A DNA stretch of 64,000 bases. Source: Prorocentrum cordatum (lineage: Eukaryota; Sar; Dinophyceae; Prorocentrales; Prorocentraceae). Both the position numbers and the translations under genes were made by a program. Shown in pieces: positions 28,713-58,362 of the stretch. The notes under the pieces were generated by a model. It saw nothing but the letters and a program-made list of their open reading frames with translations. It was not told where the DNA came from and ran no database searches. Every line of letters starts with the position of its first letter. Position 1 is the first letter of the stretch. Location: contig CAUYUJ010019937.1 in assembly GCA_963575745.1 (NCBI GenBank), positions 431,562 through 495,561 of the forward strand. Direction: 5' to 3'.

Positions 28713-29046
28713 TGATAGTTTTGAATGCGTGATTGCTTCATTTTGAAAGGTAAGCGCAGTGTAGTGGGGGTGAGAGACGCGCCCAAGGATTCATAGTTTT
28801 CCTGGACGACTTCGGAAGATAATGCGTAAACAACTTGCTAGGTTCAGTTACAGAGCTACGTTGCGGCTTGCACTTCTGGCTCCCATTTCTTGCTTGATAC
28901 CCCTTTGCCTTAAATTTAGTGTTTGATATGATGTTCATATCCGTAAGGGCTTCGCCCCCTGCCGCCGGCCCCCTCTCTCGGAGACTGGGCCATGGAAGAG
29001 CGAAATCATGAGGCTTTGGCTTCGCCGTGAAGCAGTGTCAGGACCT
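28713..29046. other. No gene recognised
   Basis: AT-richer unique sequence upstream of the 73.5-bp array. Confidence 0.5.
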
Positions 29047-29975
29047 GTTTGTTTTTCGACCCTGACTCTACGGATCTGCGTGAACGGTGCCGCCGAATTT
29101 CAAAAATGTGGCAAGTCCCCTCTGTGTTTTGGACCCTGACCCTGCCGATCTGCGTGAGGAGTGCCACCGAATTTTAGAAATGTGGCAAGTTCCTTTTTGT
29201 TTGCGGACCCTGACCCCGCCGATCTGCGTGAGGGGTGCCACCGAATTTCAGACATGTGGCAAATCCCCGATGTGTTTTGGACCCTGACCTTGCCGATCTG
29301 CGTGAGGGGTGCCACCGAATTTTAGAAATGTGGCAAATCCCTTCTGTTTTTGGACCCTCACCCCGCCGATCTGCGTGAGGGGTGCCAGCCCATTTTTAGA
29401 AATGTGGCAAATCCCTTGTGTTGTTGCACCCTGACCCCGCCGATCTGCGTGAGGGGTGCCACCGAATTTCAGAAATGTGGCAAATCCCCTGTGTGTTTTG
29501 GACCCTGACCTTGCCGATGTGCGTGAGGGGTGCCGCCGAATTTCAGAAATGTGGCAAATCCTTTTTTGTTTTTGGATCCTGACCCCGCCGATCTGCATGA
29601 GGGGTGCCGCCGAATTTCAGACACATGGCGAATCCCTTGTGTTTTTGGACCCTGACGCCGCCGATCTGCGTGAGGGGTGCCACCGAATTTCAGAAACGTT
29701 GCAAATCCCTTGTGTTTTTTGGACCCTCACCCCGCCGATCTGCGTGAGGGGTGCCGCCGAATTTCAGAAACGTTGCAAATCCCTTGTGTTTTTGGACCCT
29801 GACCCTGCCGATCTGCGTGAGGGGTGCCACCGAATTTCAGACATGTGGCAAATTCCTTGTGTTTTTGGACCCTGACCTTGCCGATCTGCGTGGGGGCTGC
29901 CACCGGATTTCAGAAATGTTGCACATTCCTTGTGTTTTCGACCCTGACCCTTCCGATCTGCGTGAGGGGTGTGAA
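29047..29975. repeat. 73.5-bp tandem array, about 13 units
   Basis: CCGATCTGCGTGAGGGGTGC recurs at 29145, 29219, 29293, 29366, 29440, 29514, 29587, 29661, 29735, 29808, 29881 and 29953, plus a diverged unit near 29072. Spacing is 72-74 bp with a mean of about 73.5. Each unit also contains GAATTTCAGAAATGTGGCAA and TTTTTGGACCCTGACC. Because the period is not a multiple of 3 and the unit lacks stops, open frames persist on both strands. Confidence 0.95.
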
Positions 29976-33450: not shown

Positions 33451-34039
33451 CTCGTGGAGGCCCACGGGAGCTTCGCCCAGGCCCCGCCGCGGAGGGAGGG
33501 GGGGGAGCCGTTGTGTAACGGATCGTTGCGGTGAGGGCGGTTCTCTTTGGGCCAGAGACGAGGAAGGAAGGGCGCCAGGAAGGAAGGAGGGACGGAAGGA
33601 GAGAGGGAATGAGGGGCGGATGAGGACGGGCCTGAGGAGGAGGAGGAGGAGGAGGGCGAGGATGATATGGAGAACAAGGAGGTCTGGGGTGAGGGCGATG
33701 AGGAGGAGGACGGTGGAGGAGAGTTGAGGATGGAGGAGGTTGAGGATAGGCGGAAGGGGCAAGCTTGAAGGATGCAGGAGGCGACGATAGCCGCACGTGG
33801 GAAGGCAGAAGGACTAGTTTTTCCTCTGCGAGCCAGTGGTCAGGACCGACGAGGCCAACAGTTGAGCCTGATCTGGGGGGCCGCGCTCTGGCGAGCGGCC
33901 TCTCCCGCCTGGATGCGGGACAGCAATACAAGCATCCCAGGCGTCTGCACCAAACCCTCCAGACCCTGCGTTGGCGTTGTAGCTTCGGTGGGAGGATGGG
34001 CGGTTGCGGAGCAGTGAAGATAGTTAGCACCTGTCCTTC
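33451..34039. other. No gene recognised
   Basis: GGAGGAAGG tract (33560-33760), then unique sequence lying just past the 3' end of the retroelement relic on the minus strand. Confidence 0.5.
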
Positions 34040-36060
34040 AGGTCTGCCGGACGCGCTCATCCTCGTTGCTGTAGTCGGGATGGGAACCATCCGAACGACG
34101 GGTCAGAGTGGTCTTGGCCCCTGGCAGCTTCTTGCCACAGCACTCCTGTCCGATTCGAGGGCAGCGTCTCGAGGTGTACGCACCACGTGTGGTGCACGCG
34201 CAGAGATTGATGTCTCTGTCCCGGCGTGAACCCACCGCGTGCGCAAGCGTGTGACCTTTACTGAATCCGAGCACGCGTCGCCACGGGGACCCTTGCAGCC
34301 TAGCATGGGGCGAGTGCCAGGGCCTCGCTACAAAGAGCACCCTCCAGGGCGTCGCAGTGGTGCCAGCCTCCTGACATGCATAGCTCAAACCTAGGTCCGA
34401 GCTGATGTCTATCAAAGTCCTCGGTATGAAGCCGCACAAACCCTTTACCGCCACGCTGGCCGCACAAGCTGATCCAGATGCTCGCTGACGTCATGCCAGC
34501 TCGCTGCAGTTGGTTGAGGATTGTGAAGGAGGGCTAAGTTGGCTAACTAAGCAGTCCGCGCGGAATTAACCATACTGATCGTTGCGGTCAGCCCCAGGGA
34601 GGCAATCAAGGATGTCTCGAGGCATCTTGGCAGGGGGGTGACAAATCTGAAATACATGGTCTGTCTCATGCAGCAGAGCCCCCCGACACATTCGCTCATA
34701 GCGGTGCTTCCTACACACTTGATGTTGAGCAGACGTGTTATCACGTTTTGGTGATTGTGGCACCATCGTAATACCCAGGGCTCGAGCTACACAGTGTTTG
34801 GGCGATGTCGTAGACCGTCTTCATCTCGATTTAGTTTTTCTCAGCAAAGGCAGAACGAAGACAGCAAGAAGGACTGCACCCACAGACCGGAAACGAACAA
34901 CATGGTTTAGTTCGAGCCCTGCTGACTCCCGTCTCCGCGGTGGGATGGCCATCGCCTGGTTCACCGCTGCTTGCGGAGCTTGCTTCAGCACGAGCCATAC
35001 AGTTCGTTTGCAAAGCGTGGGCAGCGGTATGATCTGCATCATCTAGCGCATAACCTGGTCCAGAGAAATCCTTGATGGTGTGGCGTATACAAGAACCGCC
35101 CATATAATCGTCAAGACCTCGGCGACTCCAGGGGATCCCAAGGAATCTTAGCCCCACCGGGGCTCTACAAAACGGGGTTGGGGCTGTCATTGACGAAGGC
35201 CATTTTTGACCCAGCGTGTTTCCACTTGAGCTCGTCCCAGAAGAAGCGATCCTCACTCTCGTTGGCCTCCGCGAGCCACTCTGGGTGATCTCCAGCAGCG
35301 TCCCTTCGAGCCTGGACAGCTTCTTGGTAACCGCATGTCCAAACTCGATGCCTGACACTGTTGGGTCTGGCGCATAGCGGGCACTTTCCGTCGCTCCCGT
35401 AGCTTGCAGCCCTAGCGCTGCGTCTCGTCCAGACGCCTCCACAAACACATGTGATCGCCATACATTTTTCCCTGGGAGAGAGTTGTTTGGAACGGGGGCC
35501 AAGAAGCTTAACCAACGGGTTGAGTTAGACCCTGGATCTCTCGAGCGAAGAGGTGAGCTCCGCAAGAACTCTTTCGCGGTGTCTTGAGGTGCCCTGGCGA
35601 CATCTCTTGATCACTCATGCCCACCACCGCCGACTGGAAGGTTGCAGCAAGGGGCCACACACGCGACACTATTCTTACCGATGCGGCCCTTCTGACGTGG
35701 GAGGCTTTCACGGTACCTTCTCAAAAGCCGATGTTGTTGTTTCATGTATGGGAATATTTGTTTTCGTTTCCGTAATTCATGTATGGTCGAACGCATTTGT
35801 CTTTGCGCCAGATCGGGCCCCAAAACCACAGCCGAGTTAATGACGGTGCCCGCCATGGTTCCAAGCAGGTTGCCGAGCCTGCGCGCCAACGGCAGGGAGT
35901 TGCCGAATGTCGTGAGCGTCTTTGCTTGCAGTTGCACATGCCGCTCGTCTCTGAAGATGATGAACATGGCCGCGGCCGCCTGTGTCATCGTTGCCAGCAC
36001 TTCCTTTTCATGTTCATCGTCTGAGGTAAGAGAGTCGTCGTCATGCAGAAGGAATGAGAG
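34040..36060 (-). pseudogene. Decayed LINE-like reverse transcriptase-RNase H
   Basis: Reading the minus strand from 36060 down: SFLLHDDDSLTSDDEHEKEV carries an xDD motif in the position of the RT catalytic aspartates. It is followed by TQAAAAMFIIFRDE, a K-T-x-T-F-G-N stretch and VVLGPDLAQRQMRS, the usual order after RT motif C. Next comes a basic connection (RLLRRYRESLPRQKGRIGK), a zinc-like CPLCARPNSVRHRVWTC at about 35383-35333, RNase H-like pieces in shifting frames (GALLHETDHVFQICHPP; GADRNDQYG), and the C-terminal GHTLAHAV, then NLCACTTRGAYTSRRCPRI and GSHPDYS. Frame changes and stops make it non-functional. The N-terminal endonuclease and fingers were not found upstream. Confidence 0.7.
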
Positions 36061-36968
36061 AAGGAGTGAGGAATGCATGACTCCCCCCCGAACGCCCTGC
36101 CCCCAGCCCCGAACGCCACCCCCCACCCCCCGCACTCACTGCCCTCTTCTTCGTTTGTGTCATCCTCCTCTCTCCATCCTGCCCTCGTATCGCTCGAATT
36201 CACGGTTGGGCGCCTTTCCACAAGCGGCGAGGGTGTCATTTTCGATCTCCTTTTCGAGCTTGCGAGGTTGACAGATCCAGCAGGCCGTGCATGGAGAGTT
36301 GGCGGGCATGTTGCCCCAAGCACTGCAAGAATCAGCATTGTTTCCTTTCTGATTCTGCTTGTGGAGTTGCCTTCGCGTGCAGCGGCACCTCAACACCGCA
36401 CTTGGCAGCATGGTCCGCCGCCGTGCCTGGGCTCGAGACGTCCAGCGTCCTCGAGGCTGGCCTCCGCCCCCTGCCAGCACTCCGGCGCAGCATCGAGAAG
36501 CTGGCAGCATGGTATTGCCGACCCCCCTCAGAGATGTTCGGCACTCAATGAGCGGCGAGCACATCCGTATCCGCGCCCTCGCGGTCCCGATTCCGAGGCG
36601 CGCTCCCGCGGATATGCGGTCGCACGGATACGTTGCGCGTGGGGCATTCGCTAAAATTACTGCCCACCCCAACCCAGCCCGAAGGCCACGATTTTTCTTT
36701 CATTTCCAGTGGCGGGGGGTCGGGGAAGAACGCGTACCCCCCCCAACCCGAAGTTCTGGTCTTTGGGGTGGCCTGGTATGTAGTCATTAAAACATCGCAT
36801 CGGATCCGCGGGGACGAGGCCCAGGGGCCCAGCCCGCGAGGCCGCGGATACGGACATGTGGTTCGCCCACGAGGCACGGTAGGTGTTCGTGTTGTGTCGG
36901 CGCGGCGGCAACCAAGGCGCGTGCGTGCGAGCTGGAGCGCCACAGTTGGCCCAGAACCAGCACATATA
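36061..36968. other. No gene supported upstream of the RT relic
   Basis: C-rich tract at 36085-36135, then GC-rich sequence. I looked on the minus strand for earlier RT motifs and could not find them. Confidence 0.5.
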
Positions 36969-37150
36969 GTGGAAACCCATCCCAAGAAACACCCTGCTTG
37001 CCTCCAGGGTGCTCTGGGTTTCTTGGGTTTCGATGGTTTTGCGATGGAAAGCGTGACGTTCCCACACCACAAATCGGTGGGCGTCGTGGGGTTTCAGGGT
37101 TGGCTTTTTGTGGAAGGTTTGTTGTAGACTGGCCTTCTCTGTAGGGAACA
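36969..37150. repeat. Dispersed repeat family D, copy 3 (partial)
   Basis: From GTGGAAACCCATCCC through TTGCCTCCAGGGTGCTCTGG to CTGTAGGGAA. It lacks the GGCCCGCCCC 3' part of the other copies. Confidence 0.85.
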
Positions 37151-37456
37151 ATCCAGCATTCGAAAAAGCCGCCAATCGTTCAAGGTTAGGCGATCCACGC
37201 GATGTCAGAAACCAACGCCAGTGTCGACACGACACGAGCCTCCCGTGCACTCCTGGCTCTGCGAGGGTGTCCCTGTTGGACCCCAGGCTGACCACCCTGG
37301 GAACGATTGCTCCGACGAGCTGCTCGGACTGCTTCAGCGGACTTGGGCCCTCTTGAGGCGGCGCGCGACCTTCTCGGGGGGAGTGGGTGCGCCATACTGC
37401 GGCCCTTCCGGCGCAATCTTCCACTGCCGTGCCTCGAAGAATACAACATTCCACAA
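37151..37456. other. No gene recognised
   Basis: Unique sequence, no motif-bearing frame. Confidence 0.5.
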
Positions 37457-37628
37457 ATGTATAATTTCTCGGCGTTCCGCGTGGATTTCGTGCATCGGCG
37501 TTCCCCCCCCTTGCGGCGCCTCCGGCGCTGCCCCTGGCGCTCTTCGCGCCAGGCCAGGAAGGGGGTCCAGCACAGGTCCAAGAGATCTGCGCCGGCCTCC
37601 GAACGTGTGTGTTCATGCTTGTGTTAGG
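37457..37628. mobile_element. Hairpin element family A, copy 2 (degenerate)
   Basis: Left arm GTATAATTTCTCGGCGTTCC then GCGTGGATTTCGTGCATCGG; core GGCGCCTCCGGCGC and GGCGCTCTTCGCGCC; right arm diverged (AGATCTGCGCCGGCC). Same architecture as the copies at 39.03 and 40.39 kb. Confidence 0.65.
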
Positions 37629-38260
37629 TTCCCGGCTAGTGCGGCCCTTCCGTGGCAATATTTGTTTATGTTTGGGATTTGATTTATTGGGAGTTGTGTG
37701 CGGGCCCCTCGAAGATCTTCCGTATCCACATCACGCGTGAGGAGGGGTGGGGAGCGACATGTACGTGCAAACCCGATGCGCTTTCAGCAGTTTTGGCCTC
37801 CCGGGACTCTTCTGGAGTTCTTGTTCCTCGGGGCGATTTTTGGTTTTCCCATGGGTTCTGGCAGATTTTGATAACCGTCTTGGGCTGAGCAGCGCACGGA
37901 GGAGCAAAGAACACGTTTTCGCGTCGCAGCGCGGCAGAGCCAGTCCGCGCGCGCGTCCAAGCAACCCAGGCTGGGGAGCAACGAACACAAGTTAAGTTCA
38001 TTGTGTAGAAACACAGGCTGCCAACAGGCATCCTGGCAGTTTGACACGCCTCGACGGGCCTTTTGGCAAAGTGGCGGATCTCGAACCTGGGCGGCTTGCG
38101 GGCGTGCGCCCGGCGGCTCGCCGCTTCGCGCCCTGCTGCCGATGTGTGAGAGTTTTGCCCGCGCCGTGTGCCTGCGCTCGCGCTGTCCTCGTATGCGCCT
38201 CCGACTGTCAAGAGGCTCCGCCAAGTCAATGGCTCGGCGACCGCCGTGAGGAGCCGTACC
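37629..38260. other. Upstream flank of the GALNT-like gene
   Basis: No repeat or second gene recognised. The reading frame of exon 1 is open upstream to about 38168 without an earlier ATG, so the transcript leader probably lies here. No TATA-like element is evident. Confidence 0.4.
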
Positions 38261-39004
38261 ATGGCGGCCAAGCGCCGCCGCCAGCACGGCTTGCTGGACT
38301 CGTGCGCGGTGCGCTGCGTGCTCGTGCCGCTCGTGCTCGCGCTCGCGCTCCTGTCGCTGTTCCTGGCGCCCCGGAGCTCCGAACTGCACACCGCACAGAA
38401 GCACGCGCACCTTGCGGTGGATGCCGGCACCGCCGCGCTGGCGGCTGGCGTGGCGGCATCGTCGGAGAGGGGGCTCTCCGCCGTCATCATGATTCCAGGG
38501 GGCAGGCTTGCGCCGAAGGCCTGCGGTCCGGACGGGGTGTACCTCAAGCGGAGCGTTGAGGCCATCGTCGAGGCGACGGGGGAGGTGTTGGCCGAGGTGA
38601 TCGTCGTTGACGACGGGACAGAGCCGCCCGTGCGGAAGCCTCAGCTGGCGGGCCTCGACTGGGAGCACCTGGACAGCCCGCGGCGAGCCGCCAGGCGGCC
38701 GAGGCTCCGGTGGCTGCGGAACGACCGCCCGACGTCGGCCACCGCGGCGCGTGGTCGAGGTGGCGACGCCGCGGCTGGCGAGGCGATCGCCTTCTTCGAC
38801 TGCTACGTCAAGCCTACGAAGGGGTGGGCGGAGCCCGTGCTGCGGCTGCTGCGCGACAGGCCGCGCGCCGTTGCGCTGCCCGCGCTCCACGACATAGACA
38901 AGGAGGCGTGGGAGCTCATCGGGCCGCGGGGGGGCACGAAGACCCACTTCGACAACGTCATCACCTGGGAGGCGGAATCGATACAGCTCTACTTCCCCCC
39001 GAAG
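38261..39004 (+). CDS. GALNT-like exon 1: anchor, stem, first half of GT-A domain
   Basis: 248 codons from ATG 38261. Residues 1-7 are basic (MAAKRRR), and residues about 17-36 (VRCVLVPLVLALALLSLFLA) form a signal anchor. The stem runs to about 70. The GT-A fold begins SAVIMIPGG (73-81), with AEVIVVDDGTEP (111-122) equivalent to the ILVDD nucleotide-binding strand. AIAFFDCYVKPTKGWAEPVL (175-194) aligns with the family motif FLDxHxExxxGWLEPLL, but the metal-binding D-x-H is D-C-Y here (Asp180, Tyr182). VALPALHDIDKE (204-215) matches the following V.P.ID.I strand. The exon ends after CCG AAG at a GT donor (39005), phase 0. Confidence 0.8.
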
Positions 39005-41690
39005 GTCAGAGGATCGGAGAAGAAAAAGCAGTCTAAACATAAACTGTCGACGCTCCGCGCGGATTTCTTGGATCGACGCATGGGCCTTCCTCGCGGCGCC
39101 TCCGGCGCCACCCTTGGCGCGCTCCGCGCGCCAGGGAAGGGTCTTTGGCGCGGGTTCAAGAATCCCGCGCGGACCGTTGAAAGTTTATGTTTACGCTGCT
39201 TTTTGTTCCGCTAAGTGAGGAAGACGTACTGATACCGCTACCTTTTGCCTCGTTTTTGTCTTGTAGGGCCTCGGGGGAGGCCTTCGTCGCCCTTGCTGGA
39301 TTCGCCTCGAAGTTCTGGTCAAAACGCACCCCTGGAGAGGTCCGGGGAGTAGCAGTATTGGTACCCTTGCTTTGCCCAGAAGGACGTCAATTGGTCATTC
39401 CCGGTTGACCAGGGCAACGTGCCAGTCTTCAGCAGTAGTTGGTGGAAAGAGTCTGGAGGGTACGACCGCCTGCAGGTTGGCTCTTCGACGCTCTTCACCG
39501 AGAACATTGAGATGTCCTTGCGGGTGTTGCTCTGCGGAGGAGAGTTCGTGCCAGTATACGACAGCGTCGTGGGCTTTTGCCATTCGCAGCACGGCACGCT
39601 GCATCACGAAAGGCCAGACATGACGCTCAACCAGGCCAGGATCATGACCGCATGGTTCGGCAGCTGGAAGTCGAAGGGCCTGTCCAGGCCAAAGTTCGTG
39701 GAGTTCCTCACAGGTCAGCGCCAGGTTGGAGATCTGTCAGGCATCAAGGAGGTGCAGCGAAGGCTCGGGTGCGCAGACTTCGGGGTGTTCCTGCAGCGCA
39801 TGCGAGTGCCGCTCGAGATCATGGGCCTTCTTCCAAGGGAGGTCTTCTCTTTCCATGAGAAAAGCACGGGGCTTTGCTTGCAGGAGTGGGACGTGAACAC
39901 TTGGGGGATGGCCCCTTGCACCGGATCGGACAGCTCTGGGCAGCTCTTCGTGCCGAAGAACGCGGCCCTGGACGGAGCCGGGAAGCTCACCTGCTGCACC
40001 TCGTATGGGCCCTGGAACTTCGTGGCAGGATCGGCTTCCTACTGCCTAGACTCGAGGATCGGCGGCGAGCGAGGGGAAAATGAGAACGCGAGGGCTTCTC
40101 AGAAGGCGGGGGAGCTTCTGAGAAGCCCTCGCGCCTTCTGAGAAGTGTTCCGTGTCCTCAGAACACTTCTCAGAATGCCAGGGGGGTTCCGAGCCGTCTG
40201 AGAGGACACGCACCTTCTCATTCCCCCCCCTGGGCTCGCCGCCGAGAGGAATGGGGACCCGGGTCCTTGGATGTGCTCGTTCTGGGCGCCATCACCAGAG
40301 AGCCAGCATTGGGTGTTGACGAACGACGGCCAGCTGCAGAATGGCGGCGTGTGTCTTGCGCCAGAGCCCGTCTCGAAGAACAAAAGGCAACATTAACATG
40401 ACTGTTTGTCGCTCCACGCGGATTTATTGGATCCGCGCTTGCCCCCCCTCCTTGGTGCGCGGAGCGCGCCAGTGGCGGCGCCGGAGGCGGCGCCGGAAGA
40501 CCCAGCGCGGATAGAAGAAATCCGCGCGGAGCGCCAAAAGTTTATGTTTATGTCGTTTTCTGTTCCTCTACCGTCTCGCTGGGCCGGCCAGCCGAAGAGG
40601 CCTCGCTTGTGCAGTGGGGCTCCTGCCAGAGTGACTCCGAGGGCCTGGCGGTGCCAGCGCAGCGCTTCGAGCTGCGCCACGTCTCGGGGGTTGCTAAAGT
40701 TGCCCCTGGCCCAAGGTGCCCGCAGCTTTTGGCTCAATTTTGGAGCCTCTGGGGCCCTCACGGCCTCGTGAGGGGTGCTCTGGAGGTCGCGGGGGGCCTC
40801 ATTGGAATTCCTGGGGGCACCTTAGGCCAGGGGCACTCCCAGCAACGCCCGAACGTCGAGGGTTCGCCGGCGGAGTTCTCCCTCTCCCTGGAGGGGGGGC
40901 GCTGCCTGAGCTCCAGCCTGCCCGGCTCCAGCGAGCCCGCGGTAACGCCGGCCATGCTCGCGTGCAGTGCGGGAGATCGTGCGCAGCGGTGGCGGTGGTT
41001 GAAGCCCTCGGAGCAGATCGTTGGCCTGCTCATGGGGGTGCCAGCCTTTTGGGGGGTCCTCCCTCCCTCCTCCCTCCTCGTCCTCCTCCTCGTCCTCCTC
41101 CTCCTCCTCCTGCTCCTCCTCGTCTCCTCCTCCTCTTCATCTCTTCCTCCTGCTCCTCCTCCTCCTCCTCCTCCTCGTCTATTCCTCCCCGTCTCCTCCT
41201 CCTCCTTCTCCTCCTTCTCCTCCTACTCCTCCTCCTCCTCCTTTGGCCTGCTCATGGATGCTTTTGGGGGTATCAGAACCCCCGAATCATCAGGGCTTTG
41301 GGGCGGTCAGGTGTAACTACAGATTCGCGCCTCGGGGGCCCAGACCAGAGTTTCCCCAGAGGGCCCCAGACCGCAGTCATCCCGGATAATTCGGGCGTCC
41401 AAAGGTGGGCTCCATTCTTGGGATGTTCGTTCGGGGCCGATTTTGCTTCAGAGCATGATTTGTTTCTTGGGCTTTCCCGGGGACTTCCTTTGGGCATTCT
41501 TCGCCAGTGCCTGCATCTTTACGGGATTTATATGTTTCTCTAGTTTGCCCTTCAGTGGCTCTGACCCCAAGAAGTCTGACCCCCATTGGCAGGCCAATGA
41601 GCAGATTGGCTTTGCCTCCGTCGCGCATGCTGGCCAGTGCCTTGACATTAACGGCGGGCGAGGCCCCGTGCTGTACCATCCCGGCGGCGC
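38261..41690 (+). CDS. GALNT-like glycosyltransferase gene with trefoil lectin exons (gene span, minimum)
   Basis: The gene encodes a type II membrane glycosyltransferase expected to act in the Golgi, adding GalNAc (or a related sugar) to Ser/Thr of proteins. By eye: exon 1 38261-39004, exon 2 39380-40066, exon 3 40247-about 40386, exon 4 about 40592-40689, exon 5 40861-41019, exon 6 about 41593-41690. A further lectin exon lies near 44.33-44.50 kb. Exons 1-2 hold the anchor, stem and catalytic domain plus the first lectin repeat; later exons hold single lectin repeats. Family assignment rests on the exon 2 block ESGGYD..ENIEMSLRVLLCGG and the downstream N-Q-A-R..GDLSGIKEVQRRLGC pattern. Introns 1-3 consist largely or wholly of dispersed repeats. 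The catalytic motifs are diverged, so activity is uncertain. Confidence 0.8.
39033..39195. mobile_element. Hairpin element family A, copy 3 (in intron)
   Basis: Terminal inverted arms start TAAACATAAACT and run about 48 bp (CTCCGCGCGGATTTCTTGGA inside). The right end reads AAGTTTATGTTTA. The core has nested palindromes GGCGCCTCCGGCGCC and GCGCGCTCCGCGCGC. This is the best-preserved copy for defining element length (about 163 bp). Confidence 0.9.
39265..39379 (+). repeat. Dispersed repeat family E, copy 1 (3' end of intron 1)
   Basis: GCTGGATTCGCCTCGAAGTT, CTGGTCA and GAGAGGTCCGGGGAGTAGC align with 58363-58477. The first half aligns with 48935-48985. In both long copies the repeat ends at a polypyrimidine tract and CCCAG followed by an open exon. 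Confidence 0.8.
39380..40066 (+). CDS. GALNT-like exon 2: catalytic C-half and first lectin repeat
   Basis: 229 codons in the same phase as exon 1. VPVFSSSWWKESGGYDRLQ corresponds to the family MAGGLFxIxxxxFxExGGYD block. LFTENIEMSLRVLLCGGEFV corresponds to WGGENLExSFRxWxCGG, but the WGG is replaced by FT-, so the acceptor-loop residues differ. NQARIMTAWFGSWK, GDLSGIKEVQRRLGC and ADFGVFLQRM follow the GALNT order. After a linker, STGLCLQEWDVNTWGMAPCT, GQLFVPKN, KLTCCTSYGPWNF and ASYCLDS begin a ricin-type beta-trefoil (alpha repeat with a CLD-like start). The frame stays open into the next intron, ending ATC GGC GGC before a GA donor at 40067. Confidence 0.85.
40067..40246 (+). mobile_element. 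GALNT-like intron 2 = hairpin element family I, copy 1
   Basis: The whole 180-bp intron is an inverted-repeat element. GGCGGCGAGC at 40061 is inverted as GCTCGCCGCC at its end, then GAGGGGAAAATGAGAA versus TTCTCATTCCCC. Inside are two perfect hairpins, GAGGGCTTCTCAGAAG / CTTCTGAGAAGCCCTC and AGAAGTGTTC / GAACACTTCT. Splicing GGC|GAGCGAGG...GCCGAG|AGG keeps frame and would use a GA donor, a class reported in dinoflagellates. Related copies lie at 63753-63946 and, inverted and partial, at 57180-57262. Confidence 0.8.
40247..40386 (+). CDS. GALNT-like exon 3: lectin repeat
   Basis: Reads RNGDPGPWMCSFWAPSPESQ, HWVLTNDGQLQNGGVCLAPE and PVSKNK. This supplies the second half of one trefoil repeat (W-x-C, SQHWVL, D-G-x-L) and the start of the next (VCLAPEP). 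Phase 0 at its start. The 3' border is unresolved: the frame would hit a stop at 40394, and a GC donor (AAAAG|GCAAC) or a nearby site must be used. Intron 3 starts immediately before element A copy 4. Confidence 0.7.
40391..40552. mobile_element. Hairpin element family A, copy 4 (fills intron 3)
   Basis: Left arm from ATTAACATGACTG to ACGCGGATTTATTGGATCCG; right arm GAAATCCGCGCGGAGCGCC then AAAAGTTTATGTTTATG; core GGCGGCGCCGGAGGCGGCGCC. It occupies about 80% of the interval between lectin exons 3 and 4 (40387-40591). Confidence 0.85.
40592..40689 (+). CDS. GALNT-like exon 4: lectin repeat piece
   Basis: After GGCCAG acceptor, reads EEASLVQWGSCQSDSEGLA and VPAQRFELRHVSG. The V-x-W-x-x-C ... 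AQRFEL pattern is that of a ricin-type trefoil repeat (W/C then Q-x-F). Ends at GGG|GTTGCT, phase 0. The following 171 bp stay open in frame but look intronic (GGGGCCTC-type low complexity). Confidence 0.6.
40861..41019 (+). CDS. GALNT-like exon 5: lectin repeat piece
   Basis: After GTCGAG, reads GSPAEFSLSLEGGRCLSSSL, PGSSEPAVTPAMLACSAGDR and AQRWRWLKPSEQI. GGRCLS...LACSAGDRAQRWRWL is a canonical CL-x..C-x..Q-x-W trefoil repeat. Phase 0 at both ends. Donor ATC|GTTGG at 41020. Confidence 0.65.
41058..41250. repeat. TCC microsatellite inside intron 5
   Basis: CTCCTCCTCC-rich tract flanked by a short direct duplication (TTGGCCTGCTCATGG at about 41021 and 41243), so the tract and one flank were duplicated together. 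Confidence 0.9.
41593..41690 (+). CDS. GALNT-like exon 6: lectin repeat piece
   Basis: After TTGGCAG, reads ANEQIGFASVAHAGQCLDIN, GGRGPVLYHP. GQCLDI is the typical start of a ricin-type repeat. Phase 0 start. An alternative acceptor 12 bp downstream (GAGCAG|ATTGGC) is also in phase. The 3' border is uncertain. From about 41735 the sequence resembles part of hairpin element I (GGCGGGGGCCTTC, CTTCTAAGCCTTCTAAG). Confidence 0.6.
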
Positions 41691-41739
41691 ACGCAGAGGG
41701 GGTCGCGCCAGGTCGGAGGCCCTCCAGGACGGCACGGCG

Positions 41740-42224
41740 GCTGCTTAGGAGGCGGGGGCCTTCGTGGAAGCGCCCGGAGACTTCTAAGCCTTCTAAGCAG
41801 TTCTTTCTCAGAAGCCACCCCTCCAGACCCCCTCGAGTAATGAAACAAATCATGACGGAAGGTTTTTCATCATTTTCGGTTTTGGGGGGCCCTTACCGGG
41901 TTTCGGGACCGTCAAACATCGACTTGGAAAGAAACACTGGTCCTGGGGACTGGATCGAGACCTCGGGGGTCGACGCACATGAAAAAAACATTATCCTGGG
42001 CAAGGACCCAAACATATTCAGTTGTGAGTACCGCAATTGTGAATTGTTGACGCTTCGCGAATCCCCACCAGCCCATCCAGAAACGATGCCCAGAGGAATT
42101 GCCTCGATCAGGGAAGTGGGCAGCACACAGAGGAAGCCATTATGAGACACCCTGGGAATGTCTGGAGCCATCTTGGAGGTCATTTTGGGCTCTCCCAGGT
42201 GCTCTTGATCTTAATCAGTGCCCC
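41740..42224. other. Probable intron sequence, no exon supported
   Basis: The plus frame 41850-42145 (SNIDLERNTGPGDWIETSGV and following) is open and protein-like, but has no lectin pattern and no clear splice borders. Confidence 0.35.
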
Positions 42225-42855
42225 CCCCCAAGAGGCCAACATGTGGCTAAAACCTGCGTAACATCAATGACTTGGCATTCTCGCCAAGGCCTCTTGGAGC
42301 ATCTTGGGTGCCTCTGGGGGATCTCTTGGGGCTTCTTGGGGGTCTCTCGGGGGCCTCCTGGGGGCCTCTTGGGGGCCTCTTGGGGCCACCTTGGGGCCAT
42401 ATTGGGACCTCTAGGGGCCTCCTGGGCGCTTCTTGGGGCCATCTTGGAGGAGATCGATCAAACAAGAGGGGAGCATTCATTAGCGTCCCCCCCAGGAGGC
42501 CAAAAGTGGGCCAACACCATAGTAAAACCAATGAGTTTGGCTTCCTCGCCGAGGCCGTTTTGGCATTCTTGCCAAGGCCTCTTGGAGCATCTTGGGTGCC
42601 TCTGGGGGGTCTCTTGGGGCCTCTTGGGGGTCTCTTGGGGGCCTCCTGGGGGCCTCCTGGGGGCCTCTTGGGGCCATCTCGGGGCCATCTTGGGACCTCT
42701 TGAGGCCTCCTGGGCGCTTCTTGGGGCCATCTTGGTGGAGATCGATCACAGGAGGGGGGTGTTCAATTAGCGTCCCCCCCCCAGGCGGCCAACATGAGGC
42801 CAAAACCCTTGTAAAACCACTGAGTTTGGCTTCCTCGCCGAGGCCGTTTTGGACG
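42225..42855. repeat. ~265-bp tandem repeat, about 2.5 units
   Basis: CCCCCCAGGAGGCCAAAA-like starts near 42223, 42489 and 42776, each followed by GCCTCGCCGAGGCCGTTTTGG or a variant and (first two) TTGGAGCATCTTGGGTGCC with a GGGCCTCCTGGGGG minisatellite and GGAGATCGATCA end. Pro/Arg/Gly frames on both strands are artefacts. Confidence 0.9.
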
Positions 42856-42999
42856 CTCCGACGACTCGCGACCCCCCCCCCGTCCAGGTCCAGGGGAGGG
42901 GGTAGGGGGAGGGGTCAACCCCTCGCCGAAGGGGAAGAATGAGGGTGGAAGAGGAAACGCCCTGAACCACCGACGCCCAGAGGGCTGGTGGGATATCTT

Positions 43000-43850
43000 C
43001 TTCGGCTGCGCTCCCTATGGGGCCACGAAGCGCTGCACTGGGTGGGGGGGAACGCATGCGGGCGGTAGCTCTGGGGCCTTCGGTGGGGCTCGTATGGGGC
43101 CACGAAGCGCTGCACTGGATGGGGGGGGGGCGCATGCGGGCGGTAGCTCCCTATGGGGCAACGGAACGCTGTACTGGGTAAGGGGGGCGCATGCGGGCGG
43201 TAGCACTGGGGCCGTCTGTGGAGCTCAGTATGGGGCCACGAAGCGCTGCACTGGGTGGGGGGGAACTCAAGCGGGCGGTAGCACTGGGGCCTTCGGTGGA
43301 GCTCCGTATGGGGCCACGAAGCGACGCCTGCGGGCACCCCCACTAGGGCCGTCGGTGGAGCTCCCTACGGGGCCACGAAACCCTGCATTGGGTGGGGGGA
43401 CCGCATGCGGGCGCCCTCATTGGGGCCGTCGGTGGAGCTCCCTATGGGGCCACGACGCGCTACACCGGGTGGGGGGCCCAGGTGCTGACACCCCTACTAG
43501 GGTATTTGGTGGTGCTCCCTATGGGGCCACGAAGCGCTGTACTGGGTGGGGGGTCCGTATGCGGGCACCCTCACCAGCACCTTCGGTGGAGCTCCTCAGG
43601 GTTCCACGAAGCGCTGCACTGGGTGGGGCGCCGCATGCAGGCACCTCTCCTAGGGCCTTCGGTGGAGCTTCCTATGGGGCCACCAAACGCTGCACTGAGT
43701 AAAGCGCCGGCATGCTGGCACCCCCACTGGGGCCTTCGGTGGAGCTCCGTTTGGGGCCACGAAGCGCTGCACTGGGTGGGGGGACCGCATGTAGAGGCCT
43801 TCGGTGAAGCCCCCTCTGGGGCCACGAAACGTGTGAGGGGTGTGCCAAAG
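43000..43850. repeat. Tandem array of ~73-bp units (array 2)
   Basis: About 12 units marked by GGGGCCACGAAGCGCTGCAC, spaced mostly 60-80 bp (for example 43021, 43096, 43234, 43312, 43372, 43448, 43526, 43677, 43757). They share GGGCCTTCGGTGGAGCTCC and TATGGGGCCACGAAGCG with the array at 3.3-4.9 kb. Confidence 0.9.
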
Positions 43851-43862
43851 TGAGGGGGTGAC

Positions 43863-44198
43863 GGGATGAGGGAGGAGGGGAAGGGGGAGGAGGAGGAGGA
43901 GGAGGAGGAGGAGGAGGAGGAGGAGGAGGAGGAGGAGAAGGAGGAGGAGGAGGAGGAGGAGGAGGAGGAGGAGGAGGGGGAGGAGGAGGAGGAAGAGAGG
44001 AGGAGGAGGAGGAGGAGGAGGAGGAGGAGGAGGAGGAGAGGAGGAGGGAGGAGAGGAGAGAGAGGAGAGGAGAGGAGGGGAGAGGAGAGGAGAGGAGAGG
44101 AGAGGAGAGAGGAGAGAGAGAGAGAGAGGAGAGGAGAGGAGAGGAGAGGAGAGGAGAGGAGAGGAGAGGAGAGGAGAGGAGAGGAGGAGAGGAGGAAG
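43863..44198. repeat. GAG then GAGAG microsatellite
   Basis: GAG triplets grade into GAGGA/GAGAG pentamer-like repeats. After it, GAGGACCCAACACCACAGGA matches GAGGGCCCAACACCACAAGA at about 4395, beside array 1. Confidence 0.95.
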
Positions 44199-44325
44199 TC
44201 TTTTTAACACGAGGACCCAACACCACAGGATGGTTGGGAATGACGTTGGGGGTTTGGGCCCTTTCTGGGAAGGCCACTCCCCTGGCGCCACCCGCATGCA
44301 CGCGCCGCCAACTGTTGCTACACAG

Positions 44326-44498
44326 TGGAGGACAGCACGGCCTTCCACGGCATCCAGAGCACGAACCAGGCGCTCTGGCTGTCGAAAGCTGGGCACATCT
44401 CCCAGTGGGGAGTAGTCGACACCACCTTTACCAATGTCTGCCTCGATGGCTCGTCTAGGCCCACGCACGCTGGGAGTCTCAAGGCTCTGCCCTGTGAG
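44326..44498 (+). CDS. Further lectin-repeat exon, probably of the GALNT-like gene
   Basis: After CTACACAG, reads EDSTAFHGIQSTNQALWLSK, AGHISQWGVVDTTFTNVCLD and GSSRPTHAGSLKALPCEE. The N-Q-A-L-W-L..G-x-I..VCLD..C pattern is a complete ricin-type repeat. It lies 2.6 kb beyond exon 6 across only repeats and on the same strand, so it may be the next exon with a very large intron between; a separate lectin gene is possible. Following sequence near 44567-44620 (EPVKHGTASVCLGAD) could be another short exon. Confidence 0.55.
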
Positions 44499-44757
44499 GA
44501 AACCCGGCGCCGCGGGATCTCATGGGCGAAGAGAGGCCTTCGCATACCCGAGGAGACGCGATTGCTGCAGAGCCCGTGAAGCACGGTACTGCATCAGTCT
44601 GCCTGGGTGCAGACGAACGATTTGGGGTGCCACCGGGAAGCACGACGTGGGGACATGTTGGCATGGGATTGGAGTGCTTGAAAAGGGCAATTGCTCAAAG
44701 GTTGGCTCAGCCCCATGTGCCGCAGATTGAAGAAAAGCAGGTAACAAACTTGCACAC

Positions 44758-44914
44758 AGTTGATCGGAGCGTCGCGCGGATTTCCTGGATCGGCGCTGGT
44801 CCCCCCTCCCCCCATGGCAGTGCTGGAGGCGCCACCCACGGTATGCTCCGCGGGCCAGGGAGTGGAGGCCCGCGCCAATCCAAAAAGTCCGCGCGGAGCT
44901 CCGCAAGCTCATGT
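44758..44914. mobile_element. Hairpin element family A, copy 5
   Basis: Left arm GGAGCGTCGCGCGGATTTCC then TGGATCGGCGCTGG; right arm AGTCCGCGCGGAGCTCC; core GGAGGCGCC and CCGCGGGCCAGG. It follows the last lectin-like exon, so it may again be intronic. Confidence 0.8.
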
Positions 44915-45019
44915 GTACCCCATCTGCGGCGCTCCAGGGGGCAGCGAAGAGGGAGGGGCGGAGGCGGGGAGAAAGGTCATCACGTGTCATCATCGTCCCC
45001 ACCACCATCAGCGTCCCCA

Positions 45020-45090
45020 CCTCCTCCGCCTGCTCCTCCTCCTCCTCCTCCTGTTTCTCCTTTTCCTCCTCCTCCACCTCCTTCTGTTTG
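45020..45090. repeat. CTCCTC microsatellite
   Basis: Short interrupted CTC/TTC triplet tract. Confidence 0.85.
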
Positions 45091-46301
45091 CGGGAGCAAA
45101 TTACGACACCGACCCCGCAATCCAGATGCCAATCAATTTTCATTACTCGTGACGCGAAATTTGCCTCGGGGTCCAAATATGCCGACTTCGGGGGGTCGCA
45201 TGGGACGTCTTGGACGAGTTGCCGACGCTTCGCGGAGGCCGCCTTCGCGGGGGCCCAGCGAGCCCGCCGACTGCACGCGGCCATACAGGTCGCCGCCAGC
45301 ATCGGTGATGCTCCTACTCGTCTGCACGGGTGGGATCGGCCCTCGCGAATCCGCGGTATGTCCAGAGGCGTTTCGTTTTTCCGCGGGACAGCGGGTGTAT
45401 ACAAAAACCACCCAAAAACATGATGTACACCCGCCCACACGAAGTATACACCTACCCCGAAATTTATACACCCGAGCAAAAGCAAACCACGTGTTTCAAG
45501 AAACGACGTATACACCCACCAAACCCGGTGCGCCGAAGTTTGGCGTACTTCTAGAGACGAAAACCCTCTGGCGCTGAGTCGCCTCGTCGGTGCCTGCGGC
45601 GAGAGCCGCGTGGCTGGCTCACATCAGCAAGCCGCGGATTGCTTGCGCGTGCTCCAGGACGGAAGCTTCAGGCTTGCGCGGCCCCGCGCGCGTGGCTTGT
45701 TCGGCCACGTGCATCCTGCCAGTCTTGCCGACGATGGGAAGTGCGACGTCGGGGTACCATTTTCGGGGCCCTCCGCGGGCCCCCTGCCGAAGATATACGC
45801 GTACTTGGGCGCTGTAAGGCAGGGTGGGCGTTGATGTTTAGCTCCCCACTGTTCCTCGTCGTTCGGGGGTGGACAGAACCCCCAACAGTGACACGTCGAT
45901 TAGTGAAGTATCCGTTTTCGGTTCTCGTGAGGGCGCCGTGGCCGTCATTTTCCAGGCCTGCGCCCGCCAGGATTGGGCCTCAGGTCGTTTTCACTAAACC
46001 ACGTTTTACTAAAGGGAGGTCTGTCCATCCCCGAGATGGCGCGCACTGGGCCTGGAGGTTGTCCCCGGGGCGGCGGGCTCCTCGGGCGCGGGCGGGGCGA
46101 GCGCCCGGGGCGCGCGCGGACGGGGGCGGCACGGCTTGCCGGCGCGGGACGGGCGAGCGCCCGCGCGCGAGGGTCGAGGTGCCCCCCCCCCCCCCCCCCC
46201 GAGGGGCCCGCGAGTGGAGCTGCCGTCCAATGCCCTGGCTGTAACCTCGGAAGGGCCCTTAAGTTCGGAGGAGGGAGAGGTACCCCTACCTGTCGGGGGA
46301 T
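45091..46301. other. No gene firmly supported
   Basis: GTATACACC recurs several times at 45395-45515. The plus frame at about 45610-45780 (QQAADCLRVLQDGSFRLARP and following) has a C-L..D-G-S-F pattern faintly like a trefoil piece but is not called. C-run near 46182-46200. Confidence 0.35.
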
Positions 46302-46489
46302 CGTAAGACCCGGGTTTGCCAGGACTCGGGTTCGCCATAGTTTTTTGACGACCGCGCCTCGGATTTTGACGAGGAGGAGTTTCGTGGGATGTCTGCAGCG
46401 GGAGGCCTCGTCAAAATGCAGGCTCGGCCTCGTCATTTTTTTGACGACCTCGTCGGGGATTTCCGAGTCCCCCGTACCCGGGTCTTACG
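46302..46489. mobile_element. Dispersed element family B, copy 2
   Basis: Perfect terminal inverted repeats CGTAAGACCCGGGT / ACCCGGGTCTTACG enclose 188 bp nearly identical to copy 1 at 700-887. Flanks read GGGGGAT on the left and TCTCCCCGATC on the right, so the inverted symmetry may extend a few bases. Confidence 0.9.
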
Positions 46490-47111
46490 TCTCCCCGATC
46501 GTACCTCCCCCTGTCCATTCGGCGGTGGATAGGGCTGGTCCTAAAACCTCCTTCGCCTCCTTCGCCCCCTCCCCCTCCCTGCCCTCCTCCTCCCCCTTCC
46601 CCTCCTCCTCCCCCTGCTCATCATCCTCATCCTCCCCCCGCTCCGCATCGTAGTCGTAGCTGGCGTCGTCGTCGTTGCGCAGCGGGCGCCGTGGACACAA
46701 AAATAGTTACGTCCTATTGGTGGGACCTTGGGGCCCCAGTTCTTCAATACGGCCGCCGAAAAATGATGAGTTACCCCCCACAGGGTGGGTGGTCAAAAGA
46801 CCCTTCAGGATTACATGGAGTCGGAGGATCGCGCAGCATCACCGATGCATCGGATCGATGCGGCTCGGCGCGGAGAAAACTACACGTGCAAACTACACGT
46901 GGAACTACACGTGCACGTGGAGTGGACGTCTGGGCGATGTCGAGTTGGGGGGTCCACGCCCTCGAGTAGAAAAGGGCGCTGCCTCGAGCACGCGCGCCGG
47001 CATCCCCAACTGGCGGCCCCCCTCCTTAAGCCGAGGGCGGGCCCGCGCGCACGCTTTTGGGCGATGGGGGGGAAGAAGGGGGGAGGGAGTCGAAGAAGAA
47101 AGCACGCCGTA
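46490..47111. other. No gene supported; partial family C element at 46815-46870
   Basis: A CCTCC-rich tract (46540-46640) is followed by a plus frame (RRGHKNSYVLLVGPWGP and following) without recognised motif. GGAGTCGGAGGATCGCGC and CACCGATGCATCGG near 46818 match the start of family C. ACTACACGTG repeats follow. Confidence 0.45.
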
Positions 47112-47160
47112 ACCATAAAGTTTTGGCGCTCCGCGCGGATCTCGTGGATCCGCGCTGGGT
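47112..47160. repeat. Half-copy of hairpin element family A
   Basis: One arm only, from TAACCATAAAGTTTTGGCGC to GATCTCGTGGATCCGCGCTG. No inverted partner was found within the next 500 bp. Confidence 0.75.
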
Positions 47161-47366
47161 CCCCTTTCTTTTTCTAGGGAGGGGAGGGAGGGATAGGACG
47201 GGGTTGGGACGAGGATGGATCCCTTCCAGAGCGTTTCAGGACGCTCTCAGGGCGTTCCTGGACGCTCTGAGGAGGCCGCGGCGCCCGAGACATCTTCCAG
47301 TACCTTCGCATCTCAGAGGTTATCGATTTATCCCCACCCGATATTATCATCGTCCTGGTTTCGTCC
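47161..47366. other. Unique sequence
   Basis: No gene recognised in either strand. Confidence 0.4.
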
Positions 47367-47374
47367 TCAGAGAG

Positions 47375-47420
<46 letters not shown>

Positions 47421-47421
47421 G
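47367..47421. repeat. GA dinucleotide microsatellite
   Basis: (GA)n with a few A-rich interruptions. Confidence 0.95.
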
Positions 47422-47823
47422 GCATAGGCTCAGAGGACGACGCATCGACCTCCATTCGCCCACTGATCGTCGACAGAGCGCGCGGATGGGCCATCGGGGG
47501 CCTACCGCCGATTTGTCCGCGATGACTCGACGATTCCAGCTCGATGTTCTCCCCCTGCTTGGGATACACTTCCTGGGGGGGTAACTTCCGCAACGGCGCT
47601 GGCATATCCGCCGCTAAACACCGGCCAAATCCAGTGCGTTCTTGCCACTGCGGCCCGTCTTTTGCCGTTTTCACTGGTTGCCCGTCGCCCCGAAAAAATA
47701 ACTTCGGCCTCCAAGGGTCTCGCGTCCTTACCACCCATCCTTAAGATAAGTGTTCGCTGTGCTTCGATGCATGGCCCTGCACTCGGGCCCAATATCCCTT
47801 GACCGCTCTTGCGGAGAGCCCCC
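47422..47823. other. No gene recognised
   Basis: Unique sequence. The minus frame (RKLPPQEVYPKQGENIELES) is open but shows no known motif. Confidence 0.4.
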
Positions 47824-47960
47824 TGGAGCTGCCTCTTCCTCCTCCTCCTTCTCCCTCCTCCTTTTCCTTCTCCTCCTCCCTCCTCCTCCTCCTCCTCCTC
47901 CTTCTCGATCTCCTCCTCCTCCTCCTCCTCCTCCTCTTCCTCCTCCTCCTCCTTCTATAA
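47824..47960. repeat. CTCCTC microsatellite
   Basis: CTC/TTC/CCT triplets. Artefactual Ser/Pro/Leu and Arg/Glu/Gly frames. Confidence 0.95.
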
Positions 47961-48044
47961 CCTTGAGAGACGCTCCCCCCTCGTACTGCCCCTCCGTGGG
48001 GCTCGCCCGCCTCCGCCTCCCTCTCGAGGCTGCCCCTCGTCCCC

Positions 48045-48165
48045 ACGCCGACGGCGCCGATGCATCGCCGACGTCGACGCATCGGCGATGCGTCGCCGAT
48101 GTTTCGGCGACGCGGCGCGATCCTCCGACCCCGTCCGCTCGGAGCCCCACTGGGAGATCCAGGCG
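48045..48165. mobile_element. CATCG-palindrome element family C, copy (partial)
   Basis: GATGCATCGCCGACGTCGAC, GCATCGGCGATGCGTCGCCG and the right end GCGCGATCCTCCGACCCCGT then CCGCTCGGAGCCCC. The left terminus is missing or diverged. Confidence 0.7.
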
Positions 48166-48309
48166 TCCAGGGCGGGGGGCCGCGGCGTCCGGCCAGGTGC
48201 GCCCGTGGGCCGTAGTCGCGAGGCTCCTGGGCGTCGCAGGATGCTCGAGCTTTGCCGAGGCACCGGCGATCGTCCGACTCCAGCGGAGCCTCGCACAGAA
48301 AGACGGGTT

Positions 48310-48525
48310 TCGCGGGCCCCCAGACGGTGTGGTGACCACACCGTGCGGTGAGTCGGTGGGGATTCGGGGTCACCGCACGGTTTTGGGACTCGGGTCGTTC
48401 TCCGAGGACGTCTCGGGCGACAGGGGCCTCCGGGGTCCCAAGACCGTGCGGTGACGGACCGTGCGGTGAGGTCTTGGAGGATTTCGAGGTCACCGCACGG
48501 TCCGTCACCGCACCGTTTGGGGACT
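48310..48525. repeat. Nested inverted repeats of ACCGTGCGGTGA
   Basis: ACCGTGCGGTGA or its complement occurs about seven times. The strongest pair is 48446-48472 (ACCGTGCGGTGACGGACC...) against 48490-48517, 27 bp with one mismatch, with a loop of about 20 bp. A weaker stem pairs about 48320-48350 with 48388-48402. Confidence 0.85.
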
Positions 48526-48655
48526 CCAAAGGGTTCATTTGCGCCGACACTGGCGCCCAAGCTGCCCGCGCGAGGTTGCGCGCAAGCGGCCTCGTTTCCA
48601 CCGCGGCGTGCCGCGCGGGCGGCCCGCGTGAGCTGCGGCCCGAGGTTGCCGTGCC

Positions 48656-48847
48656 ATGCCGCGCAAGACCCGTCTCTTCTCGTCGCTCGTCGTTTGGGAC
48701 CCCGCCTCTAGCAGGCTCACTGCGACGCCGGCGAAGGCGCTCAAGGTCGAATTCTGCGATGCGGAAGCACCGAGGGACACGGTGACGCCACTGGAAGCGA
48801 TGGGGTTCATTCTGGAACGATCGGGGCCGCGATCGATTCGAGGTTGA
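48656..48847 (+). CDS. Small open frame, unknown
   Basis: ATG 48656 to TGA 48845-48847, 63 residues: MPRKTRLFSSLVVWDPASSR, LTATPAKALKVEFCDAEAPR, DTVTPLEAMGFILERSGPR. Balanced composition and a real ATG make it better than most frames here. It could be an exon or a small protein. No motif recognised. Confidence 0.3.
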   Translation: MPRKTRLFSSLVVWDPASSRLTATPAKALKVEFCDAEAPRDTVTPLEAMGFILERSGPRSIRG

Positions 48848-48934
48848 ACGATCGACGCGGTGTCAAAAACTTTTGCGCGCGCCGACGCCGCACGAATTTG
48901 CCGTACCTCCCCTCGTTCTCGCCCTGGTGCGTCT

Positions 48935-48985
48935 CCCAAGAGGCCCTCGTCGCCACCGCTGGATTCGCTTCGAGACTGTGAAGGC
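48935..48985. repeat. Dispersed repeat family E, copy 3 (first half)
   Basis: GAGGCCCTCGTCGCCACCGC then TGGATTCGCTTCGAG aligns with 39278-39315 and 58370-58415. The half with the splice-like end is missing; a GAC microsatellite (49018-49080) follows. Confidence 0.6.
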
Positions 48986-49032
48986 CTTATGGCCTGTGCC
49001 GCCGACCCTGCAAGACGCTGACGACGACGACG

Positions 49033-49071
<39 letters not shown>

Positions 49072-49099
49072 TCGACGACCGCGAACCCACCGTACTTCC

Positions 49100-49275
49100 C
49101 CCCTCCCCTGGCCGGCGCGGCCGAGGCCCGGTGCATCGCCTGCGGCCGCCCGCAGCCCAGCGACTGGGTGCGGCAGGAGCGCACCCGCGGCGCGCGCGCG
49201 GCGCGCGCCTTCGGAGGCCCCCGGAGCCGCCTCGGCAACGGGGCCCCTGGGAACCTGGCGCTGCCTGGGCGTCGC
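49100..49275 (+). CDS. Candidate exon with CxxC motif
   Basis: Frame reads PPPLAGAAEARCIACGRPQP, SDWVRQERTRGARAARAFGG, PRSRLGNGAPGNLALPG. C-I-A-C plus following G-R-P-Q-P-S-D-W looks like half of a zinc-binding knuckle followed by a basic linker. Strong GC3. The partner CxxC was not found, so exon borders and family are open. Element C copy 5 begins about 30 bp downstream. Confidence 0.4.
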
Positions 49276-58276: not shown

Positions 58277-58362
58277 GCCCAGGGCCCCTCGCGTTGTAAA
58301 AAACAGATTGGCCAGAGATCTTGGGGAGGACAGGGTACCTCTACCCTTCGCAGGCTTTCCCC

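Follow-up and report, generated by a model that had tools for sequence, protein, structure and literature searches.

Short inverted-repeat transposons as introns of a GALNT-like gene of Prorocentrum cordatum, some of them likely removed without recognised splice dinucleotides

Results and Discussion

In this study, we report a GALNT-like gene of Prorocentrum cordatum whose six introns include at least four small hairpin transposons inserted into coding sequence. Most of these introns cannot be cut out exactly by the splice-site rules of dinoflagellates, a point that the initial annotation of this DNA, made from the sequence alone, had overlooked. Introns made by introners are already known in this species; what was less expected is that four of the six (introns 3 to 6) are excised without recognised splice dinucleotides, which we regard as likely rather than proven. 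The reading that we consider probable for the whole locus is that DNA transposons became introns and that part of them are excised by a structure- or repeat-guided route.

The GALNT-like gene and the placement of its introns

The window, that is, the whole stretch of 64,000 nucleotides that was analyzed, has a G+C content of 59.65%; the published P. cordatum assembly has 4.15 Gb and 59.7% G+C (PMC10666404). The product of the GALNT-like gene (Table 1) contains the Pfam domains Glycos_transf_2 and Ricin_B_lectin, and its best PDB match was polypeptide GalNAc-transferase 12 (phmmer, E 1.7e-18). Ten long ORFs of the window were run against Pfam, and none gave a match above the cut-off. The gene lies wholly within a 15.6-kb intron (33481-49125) of a sirtuin-2-like gene on the same strand, which is about 90 kb or more in length and occupies 2.4-58 kb of the window plus its flanks (-8.6 to +81 kb in window coordinates). 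No P. cordatum sirtuin transcript was present among the 120 of 803 matches listed, the best-scoring of which, besides the deposited P. cordatum protein P0002, showed 61% identity.

Table 1. Position of the GALNT-like gene, its exons, its introns and the elements within them. Positions are those of the window. Inverted-repeat p values are against 20,000 random pairs, and fold z values are against shuffles (dinucleotide shuffles for introns 1 to 3).
Feature	Position	Strand	Element or remark	Direct repeat or duplication	Inverted repeat at ends	Fold z
GALNT-like gene, glycosyltransferase and ricin-B lectin	38261-44576	+	Seven coding exons; spans 6.3 kb			
Exons 1-2	38261-39004; 39383-40056	+	Mapping of P0001			
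Exons 3-4	40249 to ~40375; ~40579-40683	+	Mapping of P0001			
Exons 5-7	~40858-41018; ~41605-41679; 44315-44576	+	Mapping of P0001			
Intron 1, 378 nt, GT-AG	39005-39382	+	Tandem hairpins, A then E	GAAGG, 39001-39005 / 39379-39383	None at outermost ends, p 0.42	-8.9
Family A element in intron 1 (approximate ends)	39017-39212	+	Hairpin A, 39033-39195		Arms, p 5e-5	
Hairpin E in intron 1 (approximate ends)	39213-39372	+	From the fold; repeat E, 39265-39379			
Intron 2, 192 nt, GA-AG	40057-40248	+	Family I element, 40059-40245 (hairpin I, 40067-40246)	GAGGA, 40054-40058 / 40246-40250	p 1.5e-4	-7.8
Intron 3, 203 nt	40370-40572	+	Family A element, 40373-40570 (hairpin A, 40391-40552); between 40368 and 40578	CCGTC, 40368-40372 / 40571-40575	p 5e-4	-6.6
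Intron 4, 174 nt	40681-40854	+	Inverted-repeat element, 40684-40852	ACGTC, 40679-40683 / 40853-40857	p 5e-5	-8.4
Intron 5, 588 nt	41017-41604	+	Element, 41018-41600; terminal inverted repeat TC(G/A)TTGGCCTGC; CTC-rich tract inside	GCAGA, 41013-41017 / 41601-41605	p 5e-5	+1.3
Intron 6, 2,636 nt	41679-44314	+	Imperfect inverted repeat of ~30 nt at ends	1 nt only; no target duplication	p 4e-4	

The six introns were placed by P0001, a predicted, transcript-like protein of 715 amino acids from a 2,486-base contig, which reads through all six junctions and was 98% identical to the full query in the predicted-protein database. P0001 was compared at the protein level. Exon by exon, its identity to the window was between 88 and 100%, the low values corresponding to matches that overran the exon ends. 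Given that two aligned residues differ from the window, P0001 represents another allele or strain. Since the gene extends over 6.3 kb with an intron of 2.6 kb, the contig must be RNA or an intronless copy. An intronless paralogue was rejected as its source: no second copy of the gene was found in the P. cordatum assembly used in the genome searches (4,128,499,153 bases in 21,875 contigs), where the other matches listed were at most 39% identical and the best-scoring one 35%. We infer that P0001 represents the spliced transcript of a gene in which these introns are present. A search for transcript fragments covering the lectin half of the gene yielded none.

Exact removal of the introns restored the reading frame and gave a protein matching P0001. 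Symbiodiniaceae orthologues align across the junctions with the exactly excised protein, with small gaps at junction 3, and the Cys-Tyr at junction 6 was kept in all three orthologues reaching that point.

Terminal repeats and target duplications

Direct repeats at the junctions of introns 1 to 6 measured 5, 5, 8, 5, 8 and 1 nt, respectively. For a repeat of at least 5 nt, the chance was 1.2% when random pairs were taken from the window and 0.8% when they were taken from the gene. The ends of introns 2 to 6 all carry inverted repeats (p from 5e-5 to 5e-4), and when the same test was applied to six sirtuin introns, four gave p > 0.8 and two gave weak values (0.003 and 0.02). With the element ends set at TC, introns 2 to 5 are bordered by exact and flush 5-bp target site duplications (TSDs). 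For introns 3 and 5, a duplication of 8 bp was considered and rejected, as both the inverted repeats and the ends of other family A copies gave 5 bp, the extra 3 nt being attributable to chance. Folding predicts that both ends of introns 2 to 5 are paired. The fold of intron 5 as a whole was no more stable than those of its shuffles.

The initial annotation had proposed that intron 1 holds hairpin A plus repeat E, that intron 2 is hairpin I and that intron 3 is mostly A again, and the P0001 junctions and the fold z values confirmed this composition. Its statement that each of these introns is built from a different element is not exact, as introns 1 and 3 share A. The gene has three further introns, of which 4 and 5 likewise consist of inverted-repeat elements flanked by duplications, whereas only inverted ends are seen in intron 6.

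Intron 1 is composite and folds as two adjoining hairpins. The A element stops short of the intron ends, and therefore A alone did not create this intron. Within 39001-39383, the string GAAG, with ACGT or GACGT after it, is seen again where A meets E and where exon 2 starts, as if a second element had landed in a copy of the target of the first one.

A blind scan of the 64 kb for terminal inverted repeats (TIRs) with a 5-bp TSD gave 6 matches among 1,192 pairs, four of them being introns 2 to 5. The number of matches was not significant (6, against 1 to 9 with a mean of 3.8 at 18 shifted offsets), and only the coincidence with four transcript junctions carries weight. A stricter scan gave 5 matches among 1,653 pairs, which included introns 4 and 5, introns 2 and 3 being absent. 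Two other structures of the window were recorded, namely a 64-bp element at 48448-48511, with a perfect 12-bp inverted repeat, a 5-bp duplication (ACCGT) and a start other than TC, and a tandem array at 28981-29911, with a period of 73-74 bp and about ten copies in register.

Element families in the window and in the genome

Repeats of the window were identified by blastn, general repeat finding being dominated by simple repeats. As the initial annotation had stated, A, E and I recur elsewhere in the window: family A at 2230-2336, 37461-37619, 44773-44917 (in two pieces) and 47092-47161; family I at 63749-63945 (71% over 200 columns); and repeat E at 58362-58460 (74% over 105 columns) and, weakly, at 48940-48973 (34 nt).

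The genome search for A and I that had been recommended was carried out, and both are genome-wide families, with thousands of first-look candidates each. These candidates are unconfirmed copies, of which 40 were scored per query. The family A element of intron 1 gave 3,066 candidates, with the 39 other scored copies at 81-86% identity; that of intron 3 gave 3,468, with the 39 others at 81-88% and covering 152 to 194 of 198 positions; and the family I element of intron 2 gave 2,230, with the 39 others at 77-81%.

In family I, 23 of the 39 other scored copies matched from end to end (positions 1-187 of 187), and 20 of these were retrieved; they terminate in TCGGCGGCGAGC and its complement, only slightly altered. 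The duplications flanking these 20 copies matched at a mean of 3.45 of 5 positions, with 5 exact and 10 matching at four or more, against a mean of 1.37 and a maximum of 2.4 in 5,000 mispaired controls. Inspection by eye revealed AGG in none of the 20 left duplications, and these insertions therefore brought no usual acceptor. For family A, 39 copies were fetched, two duplicates were dropped and both ends were recognised in 16 of the remaining 37. Their duplications matched at a mean of 2.5 of 5 positions, compared with 1.31 in controls (maximum 2.25 in 2,000); exact duplications were found in 2 of the 16, a number equalled by shuffles (maximum 2).

One of the 20 family I copies was recognised in a coding exon, the other joined frames having been judged by eye. 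It lies inside a PPR exon of contig C1969 (G000:C1969:22346-22546) with an exact duplication, TAATC, and its joined flanks matched PPR_2 above the Pfam cut-off (E 2.2e-7; 31 of 31 positions for PPR). None of its six exact junctions is canonical. It must be noted that this match is limited to a single motif, of which one flank supplies no more than the first residues, and that this gene could be dead.

The elements had been described as unrelated, which is only partly right. The left ends that could be placed, those of introns 2 to 5, are all TCG and the duplications all of 5 bp, which suggests one mobilising system behind them.

Splice sites at the observed junctions

At each junction, we listed which donor/acceptor pairs within 60 nt yield the protein sequence of P0001; for junction 4, at which P0001 differs, one residue was first set to the window letter (L to F). 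With this sequence preserved, GT-AG can be used at intron 1 and GA-AG at intron 2, since their direct repeats by chance contain AG|GT and AG|GA, respectively. In introns 3, 4, 5 and 6, the pairs that reproduce P0001 numbered 9, 6, 12 and 2, respectively, and none of them is GT/GC/GA-AG. The donors and acceptors accepted for dinoflagellates are thus found at two of the six introns and not at the other four.

Regarding the surrounding sirtuin gene, G(T/C/A)-AG fits at all 11 junctions assessed by homology (six by script and five by eye), a count that does not include the interval separating the exon at 67.3 kb from that at 72.8 kb. These junctions are a weak control, as they were placed on homologues of ~60% identity and chosen to fit, whereas those of the GALNT-like gene were placed by a near-identical protein. 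The share of AGG acceptors reported for P. cordatum models is 79.7%; it reaches 93-97% in another five core species and is 56.5% in Amoebophrya ceratii (PMC10666404). In our own interpretation, the lower share in P. cordatum is a hint of non-canonical introns.

An alternative that we consider unlikely, although it deserves attention, is that introns 3 to 6 are missing from the allele or strain behind P0001, either because the sites are empty or because a cDNA-derived intronless copy is involved, and that the reference uses nearby GT/GC/GA-AG sites and gives a slightly altered protein. The two residues by which P0001 and the window differ are in its favor. At introns 4 and 5, moreover, there are GT/GC/GA-AG alternatives that add only one residue, and P0002 carries the residues that the canonical site at intron 4 would give. 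At intron 3, however, the nearest such alternatives would delete 9 residues or insert at least 20, and at intron 6 they would either delete Cys-Tyr-Thr, including the Cys-Tyr kept in three orthologues, or insert 25 residues. The family I copy in the PPR exon, in which the same pattern is seen, also speaks against this alternative.

The age of the intron 3 element is a further point against it. No scored copy is above 88% identity to this element, suggesting that it inserted before the lineage of P0001 split off, provided that the source copy has survived and that no closer copy was missed. In this regard, another family A copy (L014), retrieved for intron 1 and 88.4% identical to the intron 3 element over 189 columns, was absent from the 40 scored; the scored list is therefore not the full top of the ranking, and a closer copy could exist. 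Because the element looks old and the two proteins differ at two residues, the allele of P0001 should carry it. Judging from these sequence comparisons, the seemingly old element and the single-copy gene argue against a recently empty allele.

Origin and removal of the introns

The explanation that we prefer is that short non-autonomous TIR DNA transposons inserted into coding sequence with 5-bp target duplications and would thus have given rise to introns 2 to 5, introns 1 and 6 having probably had a similar origin. In the pre-mRNA, the inverted repeats would fold and bring both target copies together. Ordinary dinoflagellate splicing would suffice for introns 1 and 2. Introns 3 to 6 would be removed without a GT/GC/GA-AG pair, introns 3 to 5 exactly between the target copies, most likely through structure- or repeat-guided splicing such as that inferred in Amoebophrya. 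The hairpin may have a role in this removal, which the structure of the transposon itself may guide.

The initial annotation had proposed intron gain of the introner type. This is well supported for introns 2 to 5, with their TIRs, flush 5-bp TSDs and restored frame, and only in part for the composite intron 1 and for intron 6, which has inverted ends and no duplication. The stacking of several families in one gene, which it had presented as the striking feature, does not stand as such, introners and many families per genome having already been published (PMC9860276, PMC11453091, PMC10666404).

It could also be argued that ordinary transposons landed in introns that were already present and did not create them, which we consider improbable for the locus as a whole. 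For part of intron 1 it is likely, since A stops short of the intron ends. Coding-like flanks, moreover, are absent from most family A copies (three flanking ORFs with coding-like composition among 37 distinct copies), and P0004 and P0006, two of the five aligned Symbiodiniaceae proteins, break a few residues from junction 2, which hints at an intron there. Nevertheless, the duplications of introns 2 to 5 sit in coding sequence at the junctions, and no remnant of an older intron is seen, which contradicts this reading for these four introns.

The nearest named protein is P0002, from P. cordatum, which appears to be a chimera that combines the GALNT-like gene, minus its exon 3, with the sirtuin gene. 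When it was compared with positions 38261-67436, it skipped this exon, which is present in P0003, P0005, P0007 and, minus three residues, P0004, and it continued from intron 5 into the sirtuin exon at 49126. In the published annotation of P. cordatum, the aligner was adapted to GC and GA donors and PASA to non-canonical sites that are not specified in the available text (PMC10666404), and the flawed structure of P0002 might be what such an adaptation to GC and GA donors leads one to expect. That all six introns are ordinary GT/GC/GA-AG introns and that P0002, the deposited P. cordatum protein for this locus, is a correct model is most improbable, given an exon lost that four orthologues have, a fusion into a sirtuin exon and an aligner already adapted to those donors (PMC10666404).

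If the preferred explanation is true, non-canonical introners are not peculiar to the parasite Amoebophrya and extend to core dinoflagellates, and their origin and machinery become open to study in a culturable alga. Gene models built on GT/GC/GA donors would be wrong at such introns, as exemplified by this locus, whose deposited model is one exon short and joins two genes. RNA reads would allow a direct test of whether splice sites are required for a transposon to become an intron. A broader proposal, that a free-living core dinoflagellate has a general means of excising transposons with inverted repeats at the RNA level, precisely at the target duplications and irrespective of their sequence, is put forward tentatively, its chances being in our opinion slightly short of even. 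If it were true, exon insertions of such families would be nearly harmless and introns could spread without splice sites.

Comparison with known introns

Introners have been described as non-autonomous DNA transposons with TIRs and TSDs, several families of which occur per genome (Gozashti et al., 2022, PMC9860276), and introners were also reported by Roy et al. (2023, as presented in PMC11453091). GC or GA donors have been published as well (PMC9860276, PMC11453091). Introns 2 to 5 resemble these introners of dinoflagellates and other eukaryotes in having the features of TIR/TSD transposons that create introns in exons (PMC9860276, PMC11453091). TSDs were found at introns 2 to 5, in 20 family I copies and in family A, and not at intron 6; TIRs were found at introns 2 to 6 and not at the outer ends of intron 1; and family I, in intron 2, and family A, in intron 3, have similarity running up to the intron ends. 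The introners of Gozashti et al. take their splice sites from the element, the TSD or the neighboring exon (PMC9860276), whereas GT/GC/GA-AG is missing from the junctions observed for introns 3 to 6. Introners of this same species, and inverted and direct repeats in its introns, are also dealt with in the P. cordatum genome paper; it looked within predicted introns, and its available text makes no mention of junctions without GT/GC/GA-AG (PMC10666404). In the literature within our scope, outside which most subscription papers and supplements lay, no report of such junctions in a core dinoflagellate was found.

Nonconventional introns of euglenids and noncanonical introns of diplonemids (PMC6221363, PMC12621601) are alike in their variable borders and in the base-pairing of their ends, and a structure joining the ends, as in the euglenid type, is likewise given by the predicted folds of introns 2 to 5. 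They belong to another eukaryotic lineage, however, and a transposon origin is not part of their definition in the available texts.

The non-canonical introns of Amoebophrya have inverted repeats of 8-20 nt and direct repeats of 3-5 nt, and their families share terminal triplets (Farhat et al., 2021, PMC7789003). This combination, with noncanonical borders, was found in introns 3, 4 and 5; intron 6 is without a direct repeat, and introns 1 and 2 are compatible with canonical splicing. Both systems have inverted repeats at the ends, direct repeats at the boundaries, splice dinucleotides that are not fixed and a terminal triplet common to families, and in Amoebophrya too a hairpin is thought to join the ends (PMC7789003). 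In contrast to that parasite (PMC7789003), P. cordatum is a free-living core dinoflagellate, the duplications are of 5 bp and the ends mostly TC(G/A), and other introns, such as those of the sirtuin gene that were assessed, fit GT/GC/GA-AG.
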